DNA of 64,000 nt from Atriophallophorus winterbourni (taxonomy: Eukaryota; Platyhelminthes; Trematoda; Plagiorchiida; Microphallidae): positions 59,546-123,545 of the forward strand of contig JACCGJ010001943.1 of assembly GCA_013407085.1 (NCBI GenBank), given 5' to 3'. The notes beneath the pieces were generated by a model, which was not told the DNA's origin, made no database searches, and worked only from the letters and a program-made list of their open reading frames with translations. The stretch's first letter is position 1. Every line of letters starts with the position of its first letter. The translations under genes and the position numbers were made by a program. Positions 15,481 to 54,818 of this stretch are shown in pieces.

Positions 15481-15945
15481 TGGCCCCTTCTGTCTGTTAG
15501 TATTCTTGTTCCCGCTTACGTAACTGTAAAATGTTTCACAATGCAGGGTAGCTAGCCCCAAGCTTAACCCTTGTCCTTTTGCAACAAGGCTTGAGATAAT
15601 CATTGGCGGAGTTTAACTGGATATAATTAATTTTAACGTTCCATATAAAAAGCTCTTTATTAATTTTAATCACCATTTGAACATGGTATTCGACGTTTCC
15701 CGAACACATAGTTGGATTACACAGAATTAGCTTGGCGGCTCTCCTTAACACGATTTCGGAATTTCATGAATAAATAACGTTTTTTTGAGCATTGTCATTT
15801 CAGAATTAGCTTGAATTGGCCATTAAATATTATTTCTATATAATTTATATTGGCGGAATGGCGGGAATAATTAATTTGCTCAAAATTCATCTTATGCCAT
15901 ATTACGAGACATTTCTAAACTACAAAGCATTAAACAAATTTAAAT
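15481..15945. other. Unassigned spacer
   Basis: A 71-codon minus frame (15536-15751) starts MLRRAAKLILCNPTMCSGNV. The LRRAAKL start is loosely like CR1 C-terminal sequence, but the rest does not support it. Nothing else was recognised. Confidence 0.35.
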
Positions 15946-16066
15946 GTGGTTCTTACAAAGAACCACGATGTTCAAATACAAAATCACAAAGTGATTCCCG
16001 GGAACAAGCGCTCGAGACGCATATAAATGACCAATGTATTGTGGTGCTCACATTCCCATCCCTTAC

Positions 16067-16109
16067 ACACCACTACCGGTTTCTGGCTGTTTGCCGTCAT
16101 CAGGTGGAG
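16067..16109 (-). ncRNA. Hammerhead ribozyme-like core, copy B1
   Basis: Reverse complement reads CTGATGA (16103-16097), stem II GGC/GCC with loop AAACA, then GAAA (16083-16080), stem III palindrome ACCGGT, and triplet GUA, predicting cleavage between 16074 and 16073. Stem I pairs CCAC (5' side) with GUGG (3' side). The base pair next to the core in stem II is C·A, where natural hammerheads usually have G-C, so activity may be reduced. The known minimal type I hammerheads with very short stem III work as dimers, and the palindromic stem III fits that. Confidence 0.7.
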
Positions 16110-16256
16110 ACAGCAAGATCAGATTCATTGAGCCTTGATTCTGTATTTAAACATCGTGGTTCTTTGTAAGTACCCTATATAACAGTGACATACAAGTTTA
16201 ACTTTTGTTTACCGCTTTTCTACTGTCTCAAGGCTTACTGAACCTGATCTTACTGT

Positions 16257-16298
16257 CTCCACCTGATGACGGCAAACAGCCAGAAACCGGTAGTGGTA
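16257..16298 (+). ncRNA. Hammerhead ribozyme-like core, copy B2
   Basis: Plus strand reads CCAC, CTGATGA (16263-16269), C, GGC, AAACA, GCC, A, GAAA (16283-16286), CCGGT, A, GTGG. Predicted cleavage lies between 16292 and 16293. It is the inverted partner of the core at 16067-16109 and shares the same C·A pair at the base of stem II. In a transcript spanning both, the two copies would base-pair along most of their length and might mask the ribozyme fold. Confidence 0.7.
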
Positions 16299-16345
16299 TG
16301 TAAAGGATGGGGATGTGAGCACCACAATACAAAGCATTCACTTAG

Positions 16346-20050: not shown

Positions 20051-20794
20051 TCTCTTTACTAAAATAAACTCGAAATTGTCAAAAAATACGCAGTTCACAC
20101 CAAAAATAACTCTAAAATCACTGTATCTACAAGAAATTCATATTATTTTGTAAGCATGCTTCATCGTGAACACATTCATGATAAATTGAATTAGCATATG
20201 CAGATCCTGATCCTACTATCCTAACCTAATGAGTGCAAACATCACGAAACAGGTCGTAGAGAGTGTGTGTGTGTGATGGAAATGCATGCAAATGAGGTTT
20301 TTACGTAAGCTACAATTTATCGTTTGGAAATATTGACACAAGTGTGAAACATAAAAAGTTACTTTCTACCATAGGCATGCGGATTATGCAAACTTGGCTA
20401 AGTATCATGTTGAATTTTATGCTCTTAACTTACATTATTTTCCGATTACAAGATAGAGAAAATTTAAACAAAATATAGTTGATTGGCAGAAATGTTAGAT
20501 TATTGATTTTTATATCCCTTTGTCACATTTATCTTTACGCTTATCATGGGAAAACATTCTTTTTATGGAAAACGTAAATAAATTATGTTCTGAGGGGCGT
20601 GATATAATTAGATTTGAAAATAAACGACCGGTGTAATGGGCGATTCAAAATTTATTGACCACCAGAATAGACACCCTATGAAATAAATTTTATGCGGACA
20701 ATATATGAACATCCGCGTAAAAGATATGAAGGTTTTAAAAGTACAAGAATCTCGAAATTCTGATGTAACAGCTTAGAATTGACATTTATTTTTG
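20051..20794. other. Intergenic, no gene; short GT repeat
   Basis: No coding signature was recognised. A short GTGTGTGTGTGTG run lies at about 20261-20275. Confidence 0.5.
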
Positions 20795-40120: not shown

Positions 40121-40260
40121 TCAATATATTGTGGTGCTCGCATCCTCACCGGCTTCTGAATGTTTGCTATCATTAGTTGGAGACTGTAAGATCACGTCCA
40201 GTGAGCCTTAAACCCTATTTAACAGTGACAAACAAGCTAAACTTTGTTTTATTCACTTCG
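40121..40260. repeat. Decayed hammerhead repeat (subfamily B)
   Basis: CAATATATTGTGGTGCTCGC at 40122 matches the head of the repeat at 16031 and 44086. It is followed by a shortened CACCGGCTTCTGAATGTTTG core region, then GTGAGCCTTAAACCCTATTT and AACAGTGACAAACAAGC. The hammerhead on the minus strand (about 40147-40182) reads CTAATGA instead of CTGATGA, so it is dead. Confidence 0.7.
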
Positions 40261-44085: not shown

Positions 44086-44323
44086 CCAATGTATTGTGGT
44101 GATCACATTCCCATCCCTTACACACAACTACCTGTTTCTGGCTGTTTGCCGTCATCAGGTGAAGACAGTAAGATCAGGTTCAGTGAGCCTTGAAGCAGTG
44201 GAACAGCAGTAAACAAAGTTAAACTTGTATGACACTGTTATATAGGGTTCTTACAAAGAACCAGGATGTTTAAATAAAGAATCACAGAGTGATTCCTGGC
44301 CAAGTGCTCCAGGCGCATATAAA
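44086..44323. mobile_element. Hammerhead repeat, complete 238-bp unit (subfamily B)
   Basis: It runs from CCAATGTATTGTGGTGATCA through the minus-strand hammerhead core, CAAGGCTCACT-type sequence in reverse (AGTGAGCCTTGAAGCAGTGG), GTAAACAAAGTTAAACTTGT, ATGACACTGTTATATAGGGT, TCTTACAAAGAACCAGGATG and ends GGCGCATATAAA. Subfamily A units in the 46-47 kb array have homologous words: ATCAGG, CTTGAAACAGTGGAGGAATG, GTAAACAAGGAGCG and ATGCCACTGTTGGA. The length agrees with the array period of 233-237 bp. No ORF of its own is evident, so it would be non-autonomous. Confidence 0.78.
44122..44165 (-). ncRNA. Hammerhead ribozyme-like core, copy B3 (weakened)
   Basis: Reverse complement reads CTGATGA, C, GGC, AAACA, GCC, A, GAAA, then CAGGTA. 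Core blocks are intact, but the stem III palindrome is lost (CAGG instead of CCGG), stem I has a mismatch and the C·A pair at the base of stem II is present as in copies B1 and B2. Confidence 0.6.
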
Positions 44324-44359
44324 AAACAAATTTTCATTATGTGCACATGAATTAATCAG

Positions 44360-45949: not shown

Positions 45950-46000
45950 TTTGTTCCTTTAATAAATTTGCTGATTGTATACATTCCCAACACGCACACT

Positions 46001-46037
46001 GCAAGACCGGTTTTGATTTGTTAGCTTTCATCAGTAA
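46001..46037 (-). ncRNA. Decayed hammerhead, array unit 0
   Basis: Reverse complement reads CTGATGA, AAGC, TAACA, AATC, AAAACCGGTC. The stem II pairing is destroyed and G of GAAA has become A, so it should not cleave. It marks an older array unit. Confidence 0.55.
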
Positions 46038-46132
46038 AAGCATGATCCGCATGACTTGAAACCCTTGGAAACGGTAAACAATGTTTGATCTTGAAACAAA
46101 ATATTCATTTGCACGCTTTTCCTTCACAAAAC

Positions 46133-46178
46133 ACCCCAGGACCGGTTTCGTGCTGTTTGCACTCATCAGGTAGGGATA
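46133..46178 (-). ncRNA. Hammerhead ribozyme, array unit 1
   Basis: Reverse complement reads ATCCCTA, C, CTGATGA (46169-46163), GTGC, AAACA, GCAC, GAAA (46149-46146), CCGGTC, CTGGGG. Stem II is a perfect 4-bp GUGC/GCAC with the canonical G-C next to the core. Stem III is the palindrome ACCGGU and the triplet is GUC, predicting cleavage between 46140 and 46139. In stem I the first pair is C·C, but the following U-A, G·U and three G-C pairs hold. This matches the consensus of type I hammerheads with minimal stem III. Confidence 0.82.
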
Positions 46179-46366
46179 GTACGATCAGGATCCGCATGCG
46201 CTTGAAACAGTGGAGGAATGGTAAACAAGGAGCGTTTGCATGCCACTGTTGGAATAAGGCTGGTACGACCAAACTTTTCAATCACATGTGTCCAAACACA
46301 TGTTTAATGGGGTTAAACCCATACGTGGAACAAAATATTCATTTGCATGCTTTTCCTTCGCAAAAC

Positions 46367-46411
46367 ACCCCACAACCGGTTTCGTGCTGTTTGCACTCAT
46401 CAGGTAGGGAC
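46367..46411 (-). ncRNA. Hammerhead ribozyme, array unit 2 (best match)
   Basis: Reverse complement reads CCCTAC, CTGATGA (46403-46397), GTGC, AAACA, GCAC, GAAA (46383-46380), CCGGT, T, GTGGGG. Stem I is 6 bp (CCCUAC with GUGGGG, including one G·U). Stem II is 4 bp. Stem III is palindromic ACCGGU. The triplet is GUU, an allowed NUH, with predicted cleavage between 46374 and 46373. That is exactly 234 nt from the site in unit 1. No core position deviates from the hammerhead consensus. Confidence 0.87.
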
Positions 46412-46602
46412 AGTAAGATCAGGATCTGCATGCGCTTGAAACAGTGGAAGAATGGTAAACAAGGAGCGCTTGTATGCCACTGTTGGATAAGCTGGTAGAC
46501 CAACCTGTTCAAGCACATGTGTCAAACACCTGTTAAAGGGTGTTGAATCCATGAACCAGTGAACAAAAATTGCATGTGCCTGCTTTTCCCTTACAAAAGA
46601 CA

Positions 46603-46645
46603 CCCAGGTCGGGGATTCGTGCGTTGGCCCTATCAGGTAGGGATA
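46603..46645 (-). ncRNA. Decayed hammerhead, array unit 3
   Basis: Reverse complement reads CTGATAGGGCCAACGCACGA then ATCCCC. The CTGATGA block and the stem III palindrome are lost. The same unit has many small indels, so either it is old or the assembly is poor here. Confidence 0.6.
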
Positions 46646-46836
46646 CGTGCGATCCAGGATCCGCATGCGCTTGAAACCGTGGAGGAATGGTAAACAAGGA
46701 GCGCTTGTATGCCACAGTTGGATAAGGCTGGTACGACCAACCTGTTCAATCACATGTGTCCAAACACATGTTTAATGGGGTTAAATCCATAACCATGAAA
46801 CAAAATATTCATTTGCATGCTTTTCCTTCACAAAAC

Positions 46837-46880
46837 ACCCCAGGACCGGTTTCGTGCTGTTTGCACTCATCAGGTAGGGA
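46837..46880 (-). ncRNA. Hammerhead ribozyme, array unit 4
   Basis: Reverse complement of the core (CTGATGA at 46873-46867, GTGC, AAACA, GCAC, GAAA, CCGGTC, CTGGGG) is identical to unit 1, with predicted cleavage between 46844 and 46843. The distance to the site of unit 2 is 470 nt, twice 235. Identity with unit 1 suggests recent homogenisation. Confidence 0.82.
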
Positions 46881-47080
46881 TAGTACGATCAGGATCCGCA
46901 TGCGCTTGAAACAGTGGAGGAATGGTAAACAAGGAGCGTTTGCATGCCACTGTTGGAATAAGGCTGGTACGACTAACCTGTTTAATTACATGTGTCCAAA
47001 CCCATGTTTAATGGGGTTAAACCCATAACCATGATCTTGTTAGCCACTATTGGGCACGGTCGGTACCAACCATCAGTTCG

Positions 47081-47246
47081 TTCACTTGTGTTTACAAAAT
47101 GGGAATGTAGTTATACCCATGGGCATAATTTATTTATTTTATTTACACAGCGGATCTTGAAACACAACACAATTATATCATAACAATAGTATGTACATAC
47201 TTGCCAGCCTACATAAATGCATGAATGCATACATGCATACAAGTTG
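47081..47246. other. Spacer with short imperfect CATA/ATGC repeat
   Basis: No gene. ATAAATGCATGAATGCATAC and ATGCATACAAG at 47213-47241 lie next to the 3' end of the F1 copy and may be its tail repeat. Confidence 0.5.
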
Positions 47247-48531
47247 TTGGAATCCTTCGGTCGATGTCGATCATAGATATAGATCCCAATTCGCATGAGT
47301 GTTTGCATGTTCCACAACTTTTCGAATGACTAAACTGTCCGATTCGAGAAAAACAATCTCTCAAAATCGGTCGCTGCGATAGGCGGCGTGATTTCCGTTC
47401 AGCAGCCAAGAGCTGTATCTGCTACTCCCCAGATTGCAGACGATGTTTTAAACAAAGCCTCCAATGTGCGCGGTCAAGAGCAATTTATTCCCAACCCGTG
47501 CATTTAATGCAAAGTGATTTTATCCCTCTTTGCAAATGACTTTCGCCGCAAGTGCGGTACGCTCAATGCCCGGCTTCCTGATTTCAACTCGTCATATATT
47601 AGATCTTTTGGAATACAACCGTTTTCAATTCTGTTACCTTAATAGGATCAACATGCATTTGAGAACACTTCAGCATTAGTCACTTTGTCCATCCACGATA
47701 TGTTCAAGATGAAACGGATGCTTCATAGATGGAAAACATTTAACTTACGTTCATGTCATTGGCGGATGGTCAAAGTTTCACGTGTAAACACGTGCTGTAT
47801 ACAATCAGATTTAGATACACAGTCGACTTGCGGTTGACCCAGACATAAAAAATCAATCGGGACAAAATAACAGCTGCTATGCTGAGCCGTTTATCAATCT
47901 TCGTGTCTAGCAGGTTATCCTCAATGGTTGAAAAAAGATATGTGAAACGATGCATTGGTTCAAGCAGACAGATTTCAACAGTGATGATACGATGCGATAT
48001 AATCCCTTGACCAAGTGCTTTGGTCTTGTTAGCCCAAAGTTTTTGCATGCTCAAAAAACAGTGCATTAAGGACTGGAGGGATTTCGGGAGTGAGTAATAA
48101 TGGCTACATCGTCGGCAAACAGCAGGTCACGGATTAGCCCATCCCGTACCATTGTTTGTGGTCTCAACCGGGTGAGGTTGAAAAGGTTGCCATCACTTCG
48201 TGTACGTAATTAAATGCCTTCTGTTCTCGTCCTAAAAGGGTGATTCAGAAGCAGAGCAATGAAAATAATGTAAAGCATGAGAGCAAAAACATGCCTTTCT
48301 TGACGCCTCGGCGAATTTCAAAGACTTCTGAACTGAAACCTTTAAAATGAACTGAGCCCTTCATGCCAGAGTGGATCGAAATAACGCGTTTATGCATTCT
48401 TGGGTGGCAGCTTATCAGATCAAGCATTTTGAAACGACCCTCCCTGCTGACGTAGTCCAATGCCTTCGTTAAATCAATAAAAACAGCGTATAATGGCATA
48501 CGTTGGTTCCGACAATTTGATCTTCCCCTGC
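47247..48531 (-). mobile_element. F1 non-LTR element, RT to 3' end, interrupted by microsatellite and gap
   Basis: Minus strand. From 48500 downward the frame reads QRMPLYAVFIDLTKALDYVS, then VHFKGFSSEVFEIRRGVKKG, matching other F1 copies (FIDLTKAFD and FEIRRGVKQGC). The palm continues with the LFADD region in broken frames near 48080-48160 (nucleotide match to 63700-63760) and the frame 47770-48066 holds GQGIISHRIITVEICLLEPM. The C2HC finger region and 3' UTR end near 47250 (CCTTCGGTCGATGTCGATCA). The RT is cut by the CATA repeat right after the RT position that should connect to the QCGFR block. The rest may lie in the gap. Confidence 0.8.
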
Positions 48532-48594
48532 ATACACACATACATACATGCATACATACATACATACATACATACATACATACATCCATACATA
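48532..48594. repeat. CATA microsatellite at the gap edge
   Basis: About 63 bp of tandem CATA with a few CATG and CATC variants runs into the N block. Such repeats commonly break assemblies, so the true length is unknown. Confidence 0.95.
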
Positions 48595-49594
48595 NNNNNN
48601 NNNNNNNNNNNNNNNNNNNNNNNNNNNNNNNNNNNNNNNNNNNNNNNNNNNNNNNNNNNNNNNNNNNNNNNNNNNNNNNNNNNNNNNNNNNNNNNNNNNN
48701 NNNNNNNNNNNNNNNNNNNNNNNNNNNNNNNNNNNNNNNNNNNNNNNNNNNNNNNNNNNNNNNNNNNNNNNNNNNNNNNNNNNNNNNNNNNNNNNNNNNN
48801 NNNNNNNNNNNNNNNNNNNNNNNNNNNNNNNNNNNNNNNNNNNNNNNNNNNNNNNNNNNNNNNNNNNNNNNNNNNNNNNNNNNNNNNNNNNNNNNNNNNN
48901 NNNNNNNNNNNNNNNNNNNNNNNNNNNNNNNNNNNNNNNNNNNNNNNNNNNNNNNNNNNNNNNNNNNNNNNNNNNNNNNNNNNNNNNNNNNNNNNNNNNN
49001 NNNNNNNNNNNNNNNNNNNNNNNNNNNNNNNNNNNNNNNNNNNNNNNNNNNNNNNNNNNNNNNNNNNNNNNNNNNNNNNNNNNNNNNNNNNNNNNNNNNN
49101 NNNNNNNNNNNNNNNNNNNNNNNNNNNNNNNNNNNNNNNNNNNNNNNNNNNNNNNNNNNNNNNNNNNNNNNNNNNNNNNNNNNNNNNNNNNNNNNNNNNN
49201 NNNNNNNNNNNNNNNNNNNNNNNNNNNNNNNNNNNNNNNNNNNNNNNNNNNNNNNNNNNNNNNNNNNNNNNNNNNNNNNNNNNNNNNNNNNNNNNNNNNN
49301 NNNNNNNNNNNNNNNNNNNNNNNNNNNNNNNNNNNNNNNNNNNNNNNNNNNNNNNNNNNNNNNNNNNNNNNNNNNNNNNNNNNNNNNNNNNNNNNNNNNN
49401 NNNNNNNNNNNNNNNNNNNNNNNNNNNNNNNNNNNNNNNNNNNNNNNNNNNNNNNNNNNNNNNNNNNNNNNNNNNNNNNNNNNNNNNNNNNNNNNNNNNN
49501 NNNNNNNNNNNNNNNNNNNNNNNNNNNNNNNNNNNNNNNNNNNNNNNNNNNNNNNNNNNNNNNNNNNNNNNNNNNNNNNNNNNNNNNNNNNNNN
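48595..49594. other. Assembly gap, 1000 N
   Basis: Exactly 1000 unknown bases, a length typical of a placeholder rather than a measured gap. Any open frame crossing it is meaningless. Confidence 0.99.
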
Positions 49595-54020: not shown

Positions 54021-54100
54021 TAACGGTACTCGAACAATTGTTTCAAAGGATGATGTGGGGTAACGGTACTCGAACAATTGTTTCAAAGGATGATGTGGGG
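54021..54100. repeat. Perfect 40-bp tandem duplication
   Basis: TAACGGTACTCGAACAATTG TTTCAAAGGATGATGTGGGG occurs twice in a row (54021-54060 and 54061-54100) without a mismatch, inside the C-terminal region of the CR1-like element. The sister copy at 24.4 kb has it once. Confidence 0.95.
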
Positions 54101-54818
54101 TAATTAATATTTTGTTTATCAGTATCACAGCACTCCGAAGGCTACTTTGAAAGGGAGTGGGAAGTTTCAGATTTTGCAATTTCCTCGTACGTTAGTTTTC
54201 GGAAACCGCTTACGAGTTTGGTCGCTCGGTTGTATATTTTATCAAGCAAAAGTAAATCCCTATTTAATCAGGGAGTCCAAGATTGCGATGCATGCTCCAT
54301 GTTTAGAATTCGGTAGACATTCATGATGGTGGGAAACGTTCCAGTCGAGATTTGGAAAATTCGTATCAGCATACCTAAAAGCTTGTAATCCCGCTCGCAA
54401 ATGACCACACAATGCAGGCCGTTATTTAGGCTCCTGCATGCCCAGTAACCTAGATCCCTTTCCGACTCGGTCCATCTCAAAATCTTCTGCCCAAAATGAC
54501 ATTGGTACTGGAATGGTTGTAGCTCCTTGCATTATTGGAAACTGAATGGTAGTTATTTCTATTCACGGAGAGCATCTAAATCACTTTGCAGCTGTATATA
54601 GTCCGTAGTTGATTTTATCTGCGTCTAAATTTAATATCATCACATTGCATGAGAGCGTTTCTGGTAGGTCGTTGATGTAATCCAAGAAAAGTACTGGCCC
54701 GAGGAAGGAAGCTGCGTTGTGCCACTAGATTGCACCCCACCTTGCGCCCATTGAGGTAACCTGAAAGAAATAGGAGTAGTTGTCAGCTTATTCCCATCTG
54801 CTTCAGCTTTGGTAGTAG

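Follow-up and report, generated by a model that had tools for sequence, protein, structure and literature searches.

Metazoan non-LTR retrozymes have been described as non-coding tandem units of 150 to 450 bp with a type I hammerhead ribozyme and a GC content below 50% (Cervera & de la Pena 2020, PMC7229834). The coral retrozymes of that account have units of 220 to 240 bp and occur as 2- to 62-mers (PMC7229834). A weak palindromic stem III is described there for amphibians, and the newt and axolotl satellite hammerheads, which have a single-pair stem III and a palindromic tetraloop, are said to cut better as dimers (PMC7229834). The schistosome SMalpha and W-element repeats carry type I hammerheads with an extremely short stem III, and three of five tested are reported as active in vitro (PMC8490949). 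Penelope-like elements were proposed as a strong candidate for the mover of retrozymes, as both have hammerheads, are tandem and coexist (PMC7229834). For the Penelope element of Anolis, reverse transcription (RT) is described as having an internal start, on both cut strands, at a pair of neighboring sites within a stem-loop that follows the hammerhead, and unprocessed RNA was the main substrate in vitro; the start lies 111 to 118 nt into the ORF and the cut at 26, so that RT starts ~85 to 92 nt past the cut (PMC11167929). Rotifer Penelope copies are described with inverted pLTRs, a 31-bp tail and target site duplications (TSDs) of 8 to 10 bp (PMC3846280). It is already known, then, that tandem type I hammerhead repeats can be animal retrozymes and that Penelope is a candidate partner, as laid out in PMC7229834. 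The new point of the present study is a ribozyme-to-end spacing that is common to a retrozyme and the Penelope copies of the same genome. In the literature searched, mostly outside subscription papers and supplements, we found no report of retrozyme ends at a preferred ribozyme spacing common with the host Penelope.

The locus lies in a 64,000-nt stretch of the genome of the trematode Atriophallophorus winterbourni, the whole of which is referred to as the window. An earlier note on this DNA had claimed five tandem units of ~235 bp at 45950 to 47080. TRF analysis placed a tandem repeat of period 234 and 4.0 copies at 46095 to 47031, which bears out the tandem units. Their number has to be corrected: the insert comprises four, and the supposed fifth (45979 to 46085) forms, together with 47040 to 47124, the halves of an older degenerate copy. 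The parts of the locus are as follows.

46094 to 47031, minus strand: inserted retrozyme array, subfamily 1, 4.0 units of ~234 nt (from TRF, with borders set by the target duplication and by joining the flanks into an empty site)
46796 to 47031, minus strand: unit 1, 5'-most in the RNA sense; hammerhead 46879 to 46838, cleavage 46844/46843; borders approximate, set by eye
46559 to 46795, minus strand: unit 2, hammerhead broken (~46642 to 46602)
46327 to 46558, minus strand: unit 3, top-scoring hammerhead 46409 to 46368, cleavage 46374/46373
46094 to 46326, minus strand: unit 4, hammerhead 46175 to 46134, cleavage 46140/46139
46094 to 46139, minus strand: 3' tail of the array between the cleavage site and the end of the insertion, about 44 to 47 nt, the ambiguity being a CA common with the target
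46086 to 46093, no strand: target site duplication TGATCTTG, left copy, on the element's 3' side
47032 to 47039, no strand: target site duplication TGATCTTG, right copy
47040 to 47124, minus strand: older degenerate unit, 5' half (model positions 9 to 100), interrupted by the array
45979 to 46085, minus strand: older degenerate unit, 3' half (model positions 104 to 225), with a decayed hammerhead

The array is a clean insertion with an 8-bp target duplication, TGATCTTG, nested in an older degenerate copy of its own repeat. The two TGATCTTG copies enclose 938 bp, or 4.0 units; an 8-mer in common within ±3 nt was obtained for 32 of up to 20,000 random boundary pairs in the window. When the flanks of the array were joined, they matched the unit model as one decayed unit with an E value of 2.6e-22, compared with 1.3e-7 and 2.1e-14 for the halves separately. 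The four-unit array thus inserted itself into a family member that was already in place. Read in the RNA sense, the array runs from unit position 10 to about position 7, nearly exactly four turns later; this coincidence of start and stop is a single case, and the 5' ends of other copies are spread. A 9-bp ACATTCCCA pair at 45981 and 47100 would suit a DNA transposon with terminal inverted repeats (TIRs) or a foldback element, in which hammerheads would lie within inverted ends by chance. A terminal inverted repeat around the array was rejected, however, as the ACATTCCCA pair belongs to the older unit that the array split.

The GC content of the array is 0.46, and its tandem consensus has stop codons in all frames. 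The longest stop-to-stop frame comprises 147 amino acids, and a protein search with 137 of these, the open frame across the array at 46085 to 46495, gave no relatives at an E value of ≤0.001. The array contains no RT or GIY-YIG gene and hence is not itself a Penelope-like element. A scan of viral contigs for the exact core gave no matches. At the border of units 2 and 3 (46480 to 46660), single-base indels are more frequent than in the other units, for which decay or an assembly consensus error could account. Elsewhere in the window, a 1,000-base N gap (48595 to 49594) directly follows a (CATA)n run (48531 to 48594), and a perfect 40-bp tandem duplication of 2.1 copies lies at 54021 to 54103.

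The same note had predicted minus-strand hammerheads in three of the units. A strict type I descriptor (core, stem II, a stem III A-U pair, and at most one mismatch in the six pairs of stem I) found exactly three sites in the window, in units 1, 3 and 4, and gave one match in 200 first-order Markov windows. These are also the sites matched on the minus strand by RF00163, at 29.0 bits for 46409 to 46368 (E value of 1e-4, 1.3 kb searched) and at 26.4 bits each for 46175 to 46134 and 46879 to 46838 (E value of 7e-4). The hammerheads are borne out by the descriptor and by these matches, and the cleavage sites proposed for them (46140/46139, 46374/46373 and 46844/46843) are consistent with the motif. 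The covariance model suggested as a check gave three matches at 26 to 29 bits and none at the Rfam Hammerhead_1 gathering score of 34, below which all three array matches fall. At that score there also were no matches in four subfamily-1 loci (L010, L023, L032 and L036) and two subfamily-2 loci (L048 and L049). The low scores are likely due to the minimal stem III. In units 1 and 4, stem I contains a C-C mismatch beside the cleavage site; unit 3 has a perfect stem I and the cleavage triplet GUU; the commonest form of the site in the genome copies is GUC|GUGGGG. Because the hammerhead of unit 2 is broken, a transcript of the window array would release at best one 234-nt and one ~470-nt product.

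The 537-Mb assembly that holds the window (15,840 contigs) was searched for relatives. The array query gave at least 94 matches, from the best 40 of 6,117 first-look candidates, and a subfamily-2 query at least 145, from the best 40 of 6,346; these candidate numbers are not copy counts. Many sister arrays are present in the assembly. In 36 fetched loci, which are the top-scoring contigs and no random sample, nhmmer found 498 unit matches, of which 420 cover at least 210 of the 232 model positions. The family comprises two dispersed subfamilies with units of 233 nt (subfamily 1) and 241 nt (subfamily 2), related along much of their length. Full subfamily-1 units (n = 409) were on average 96.8% identical to their consensus, versus 89.8% for the window array. 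A COX1 frame in the assembly (L062) is free of stops under mitochondrial codes in which TGA encodes Trp; NCBI table 9 translates AAA as Asn at sites where animal COX1 has Asn, which points to a flatworm or an echinoderm. Several assembly contigs also carry COX1 copies with TAA or TAG stops, which are probably nuclear mitochondrial DNA copies or contaminants. The window itself holds a further decayed copy near 13.1 kb as well as the following dispersed copies.

44096 to 44330, minus strand: subfamily-2 unit of the 241-nt type, hammerhead-like core at 44158
15932 to 16327, plus strand: subfamily-2 copy with a 5' inversion; its two hammerhead-like cores face outward, and TACAAAGCATT lies on either side, at 15921 to 15931 and 16328 to 16338
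20193 to 20302, plus strand: decayed copy, core CTAATGA
40145 to 40236, minus strand: decayed copy

Ribozymes were counted as ungapped instances with at most five mismatches in 25 fixed core positions, which leaves out heavily decayed or gapped ones, and were called intact if they had the full core, four stem II pairs, at least five of six stem I pairs, ACCGGU and a cleavage position other than G. Among the near-consensus subfamily-1 instances so counted, 61% (248/408) were intact, and at least one intact ribozyme was present in 36 of 37 loci (the 36 fetched and the window). None of the five subfamily-2 instances in the near-consensus set was intact; in that subfamily the cleavage triplet is GUA, one stem II pair has changed on both sides from U-A to G-C, and a C-A mismatch at the stem II base makes ribozyme activity doubtful.

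The consensus, CCCUAC-CUGAUGA-GUGC-AAACA-GCAC-GAAA-CCGGUC|GUGGGG, is that of a perfect hammerhead whose palindromic stem III, ACCGGU, is predicted to pair in a dimer. In the consensus monomer, stem III would be one pair. The best predicted fold of the consensus dimer is a double hammerhead at -33.7 kcal/mol, compared with -29.6 kcal/mol when the two monomers fold apart. If two full units are folded, the cores pair differently, and the energy models are blind to ribozyme tertiary contacts. The sequence GAUCNUACU upstream of stem I and the loop AAACA are mostly conserved and may form a loop I-loop II contact. Conservation of the ribozyme is barely above that of the rest of the unit (0.972 versus 0.960). 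Covariation support was weak. In 22 ribozymes, 19 of them distinct, 78.5% of cells were paired versus 75.6% in shuffles, and two pairs changed on both sides versus 1.9 in shuffles, of which 322 of 500 reached two; other covariation measures exceeded nearly all shuffles under what is a permissive control.

The claim that the array is retrozyme-like is well supported by unit size, GC content, the intact ribozymes of the large sister family and hallmarks of retro-insertion. It resembles the metazoan non-LTR retrozymes of PMC7229834 in unit size, type I hammerhead, GC content, lack of coding capacity and coexistence with Penelope. Its weak palindromic stem III sets it apart from most invertebrate retrozymes, for which PMC7761336 describes a stable helix III. 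In comparison with the metazoan retrozymes as presented in PMC7229834, insertion ends are mapped here and the element is known from DNA alone. By description, it can be likened to schistosome SMalpha and W-element as SINE-like or satellite-like flatworm repeats (PMC8490949), and also to the newt and axolotl satellites, which differ in animal group and in having units of ~330 to 350 bp (PMC7229834).

A tandem family also could be an ordinary satellite that owes its spread to unequal exchange and segmental copying and carries the hammerhead as an inactive passenger. Some arrays indeed run to ~30 units within the fetched stretch, several reach contig ends, and unit identity within arrays (0.946) is hardly above that between arrays (0.940). 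The nested four-unit insertion, the 61% of intact ribozymes among those counted, and the target duplications and preferred 3' end described below all argue against a satellite, which we consider improbable.

Several features make the copies look retrotransposed. They are found with target duplications, with truncated 5' ends and with 5' inversions arranged head-to-head, and their 3' ends favor a point ~42 nt beyond the cleavage site. Matches were merged into 61 elements, and the duplication test was carried out on the 34 with both flanks, the other 27 being left out. A duplication score of ≥9 was reached by 8 of the 34 elements, compared with 1.4% of mismatched flank pairs, and a score of ≥8 by 10, compared with 5.8%; most of the 34 have no clear target duplication. 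The window array scored only 5 because the edges used were those of the older host copy. Where present, the duplications are 8 to 15 bp and thus longer than 4 bp, as in metazoan non-LTR retrozymes; examples are AACTTTTCTTTT (L052), TATTCGTGTAA (L050), TACAAAGCATT (the window copy at 16 kb) and, in L039, the nearly identical pair TTAATGTWACCA.

All 12 strand switches in loci found with the array query are head-to-head, as are 18 of 18 when the window copy at 16 kb and five of the eight fetched subfamily-2 loci are included; the latter were found with an inverted query and therefore are enriched for inversions. The inverted piece corresponds, in several copies, to the stretch of RNA that lies immediately upstream of the direct one. 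Many subfamily-2 copies have a foldback shape, which recalls the TIR transposon or foldback element considered above. However, the inverted pieces differ in where their outer ends lie, often within a unit, so there are no fixed inverted ends, and copies without an inverted piece exist (L046 to L048). A TIR or foldback origin is largely refuted and, in our estimate, very improbable. Likewise, a foldback MITE was rejected for subfamily 2, since 5' inversions with variable ends explain the shape.

The 3' ends were mapped with a single blastn method (62 ends, 61 with a match). In subfamily 1, 16 of 40 ends lie 36 to 48 nt past the cleavage site, and in subfamily 2, 10 of 21; uniform ends would give ~2 and ~1, respectively, in this 13-nt interval, which was picked after seeing the data. 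A second cluster lies 129 to 160 nt past the cleavage site (9/40 and 7/21). These ends are often near CTTTG or CTCCTTG before TTTAC in both subfamilies (L012, L029, L035, L039, L045, L050, L051 and others). Few 3' ends fall within 10 nt of the cleavage site (4/40 in subfamily 1 and 1/21 in subfamily 2); the one copy that ends within 3 nt is decayed and 76% identical. No 5' end of 25 lies within 20 nt of it. As ends are rarely at the cleavage site, the ribozyme junction lies inside most inserted copies, which is what an uncut or reclosed RNA template would give. This speaks against the cleaved linear monomer as the RNA from which genomic copies are usually made. In a circular fold of the consensus, the main 3' end lies in the predicted loop AUGAA[UAUUUUGU]UUCAU.

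The mover of a retrozyme with such ends might be a LINE (L1/RTE/CR1-like) that uses ordinary target-primed reverse transcription and twin priming. In several copies the order of the pieces is that of twin priming, with the inverted piece just upstream of the direct part and gaps of ~3 nt in L045, ~10 nt in L050 and ~33 nt in L051. The window also contains LINE-like RT and endonuclease fragments, recognized by eye, and Pfam RT or endonuclease domains were found in 4 of 20 window ORFs scanned (three RVT_1 and one endonuclease family); no GIY-YIG domain was found in these 20. For one window RT the best named animal relative is from Schistosoma bovis (45% identity), behind a Streptococcus-named record that is probably a contaminant, and another RT has relatives from turtle, crab and lancelet. 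The listed copy ends lack a poly(A) or simple-repeat tail, however, and the preferred 3' end falls inside the tandem unit, in a predicted loop. It also counts against a LINE that the ribozyme-to-end distance nearly equals that of most Penelope copies examined (see below). We regard a LINE as the mover as unlikely, although less so than a satellite.

Penelope-like elements are present in the same genome. A GIY-YIG query reported at least 17 matches, the best 150 of 1,370 candidates having been scored. One locus (L054) has a GIY-YIG and a Penelope-type RT frame, the RT being recognized by eye. With this RT as the query, the best 150 of 2,900 candidates scored as matches, tandem copies among them. 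Six contigs (C11715, C10209, C10286, C13126, C7240 and C15598; L064 to L069) contain Penelope-like elements repeated head-to-tail every ~2.52 kb, with long open frames. All six carry, close to where the downstream frame begins, the motif CUGAYGAUGUCAUC...GAUGACGAAACGUC, which we take, by eye and by analogy with Anolis as described in PMC11167929, to be a hammerhead. In these six copies Rfam found no hammerhead at an E value of ≤1 and the strict descriptor found none, the latter because one extra U precedes stem II. Since the motif is hammerhead-like by eye only, the Penelope cleavage point used below is an assumed one.

Of 20 dispersed Penelope copies fetched, 14 match the tandem ones at the motif end. 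Their ends lie 42 to 45 nt past the assumed cleavage point in 10 of the 14, at 75 to 80 nt in 3 and at 29 nt in 1. Three of the ten share a common flank and two share another, which leaves 7 of 11 distinct ends at 42 to 45 nt. The retrozyme end cluster at 129 to 160 nt has no counterpart among the Penelope ends examined. Neither unit model matched the six tandem Penelope copies at an E value of ≤10, and therefore the two kinds of element have no common sequence at the priming site. The link to Penelope drawn in the earlier note thus is supported by similar ribozyme-to-end spacing, a kind of support not foreseen there, and not by a common repeat sequence.

The retrozyme as part of a Penelope pLTR was rejected. 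The subfamily-2 matches downstream of GIY-YIG in L054 and L056 are separate insertions, with direct repeats seen by eye (TGTATGCTGAGTAATT in L054 and ATTGCTTT in L056), and the six tandem copies have no match. The L054 fragment (2083 to 2163) lies near a Penelope remnant and the L056 fragment (2124 to 2320) near a weak GIY-YIG match, each with direct flanking repeats. Four other loci (L055 and L059 to L061) have GIY-YIG frames in long inverted repeats beside Gypsy-type polymerase frames, as judged by eye; these unusual composites are about 91 to 98% alike between contigs over long matches.

The retrozyme resembles Penelope-like elements with minimal hammerheads in its internal RT start, tandem arrangement, head-to-head inverted ends and short TSDs, as far as these are described in PMC11167929, PMC3846280 and PMC7761336. 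It differs from them in having no RT or GIY-YIG gene, another hammerhead and no match to the six tandem copies. With RT that begins internally at a preferred distance beyond its hammerhead, with inverted 5' ends and with short TSDs, the retrozyme works like a Penelope element without being a member. We favor, at a probability of a little under 0.6, the reading that the array is an insertion of an animal non-LTR retrozyme whose family is mobilized in trans by Penelope machinery, with RT starting internally on uncut or reclosed RNA. Among the points against the part given to Penelope are these: 5' inversions with such duplications also occur with LINEs, and the Anolis spacing is ~85 to 92 nt, not ~43 nt, with many retrozyme ends lying elsewhere.

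From the observed sequence, copies, ends, duplications, inversions and spacing, the following course can be proposed for this non-coding tandem retroelement. Its RNA would carry one type I hammerhead per unit. Two neighboring hammerheads in a transcript would dimerize via the palindrome ACCGGU and cut after GGUC, yielding ~233-nt monomers, which a host ligase could close into circles. Uncut or religated RNA would be copied by a protein with a Penelope-like RT and GIY-YIG endonuclease. This enzyme would nick the target and prime inside the RNA, mostly in the loop ~42 nt downstream of the cleavage site. Copying over one or more units would leave behind a copy truncated or inverted at its 5' end and flanked by a target duplication of ~8 to 15 bp.

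More tentatively, and with somewhat less than even confidence, we suggest that Penelope RT responds to a portable "take me" signal, made up of a hammerhead and a ~42-nt tail with a hairpin loop at its end, which it recognizes by RNA architecture and not by sequence. Retrozymes and Penelope occur here in one genome, with insertion ends that can be located to within a few bases in relation to the ribozyme motif of each, and their preferred ends agree while their sequences differ; their partnership thereby becomes directly testable in vitro. If the signal is real, the template would be an uncut or recircularized ring and the enzyme would be able to run several turns, and the four-turn insert in the window, with its near-identical start and stop, would be the footprint of rolling copy. 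Retrozymes then would be to Penelope what SINEs are to LINEs.
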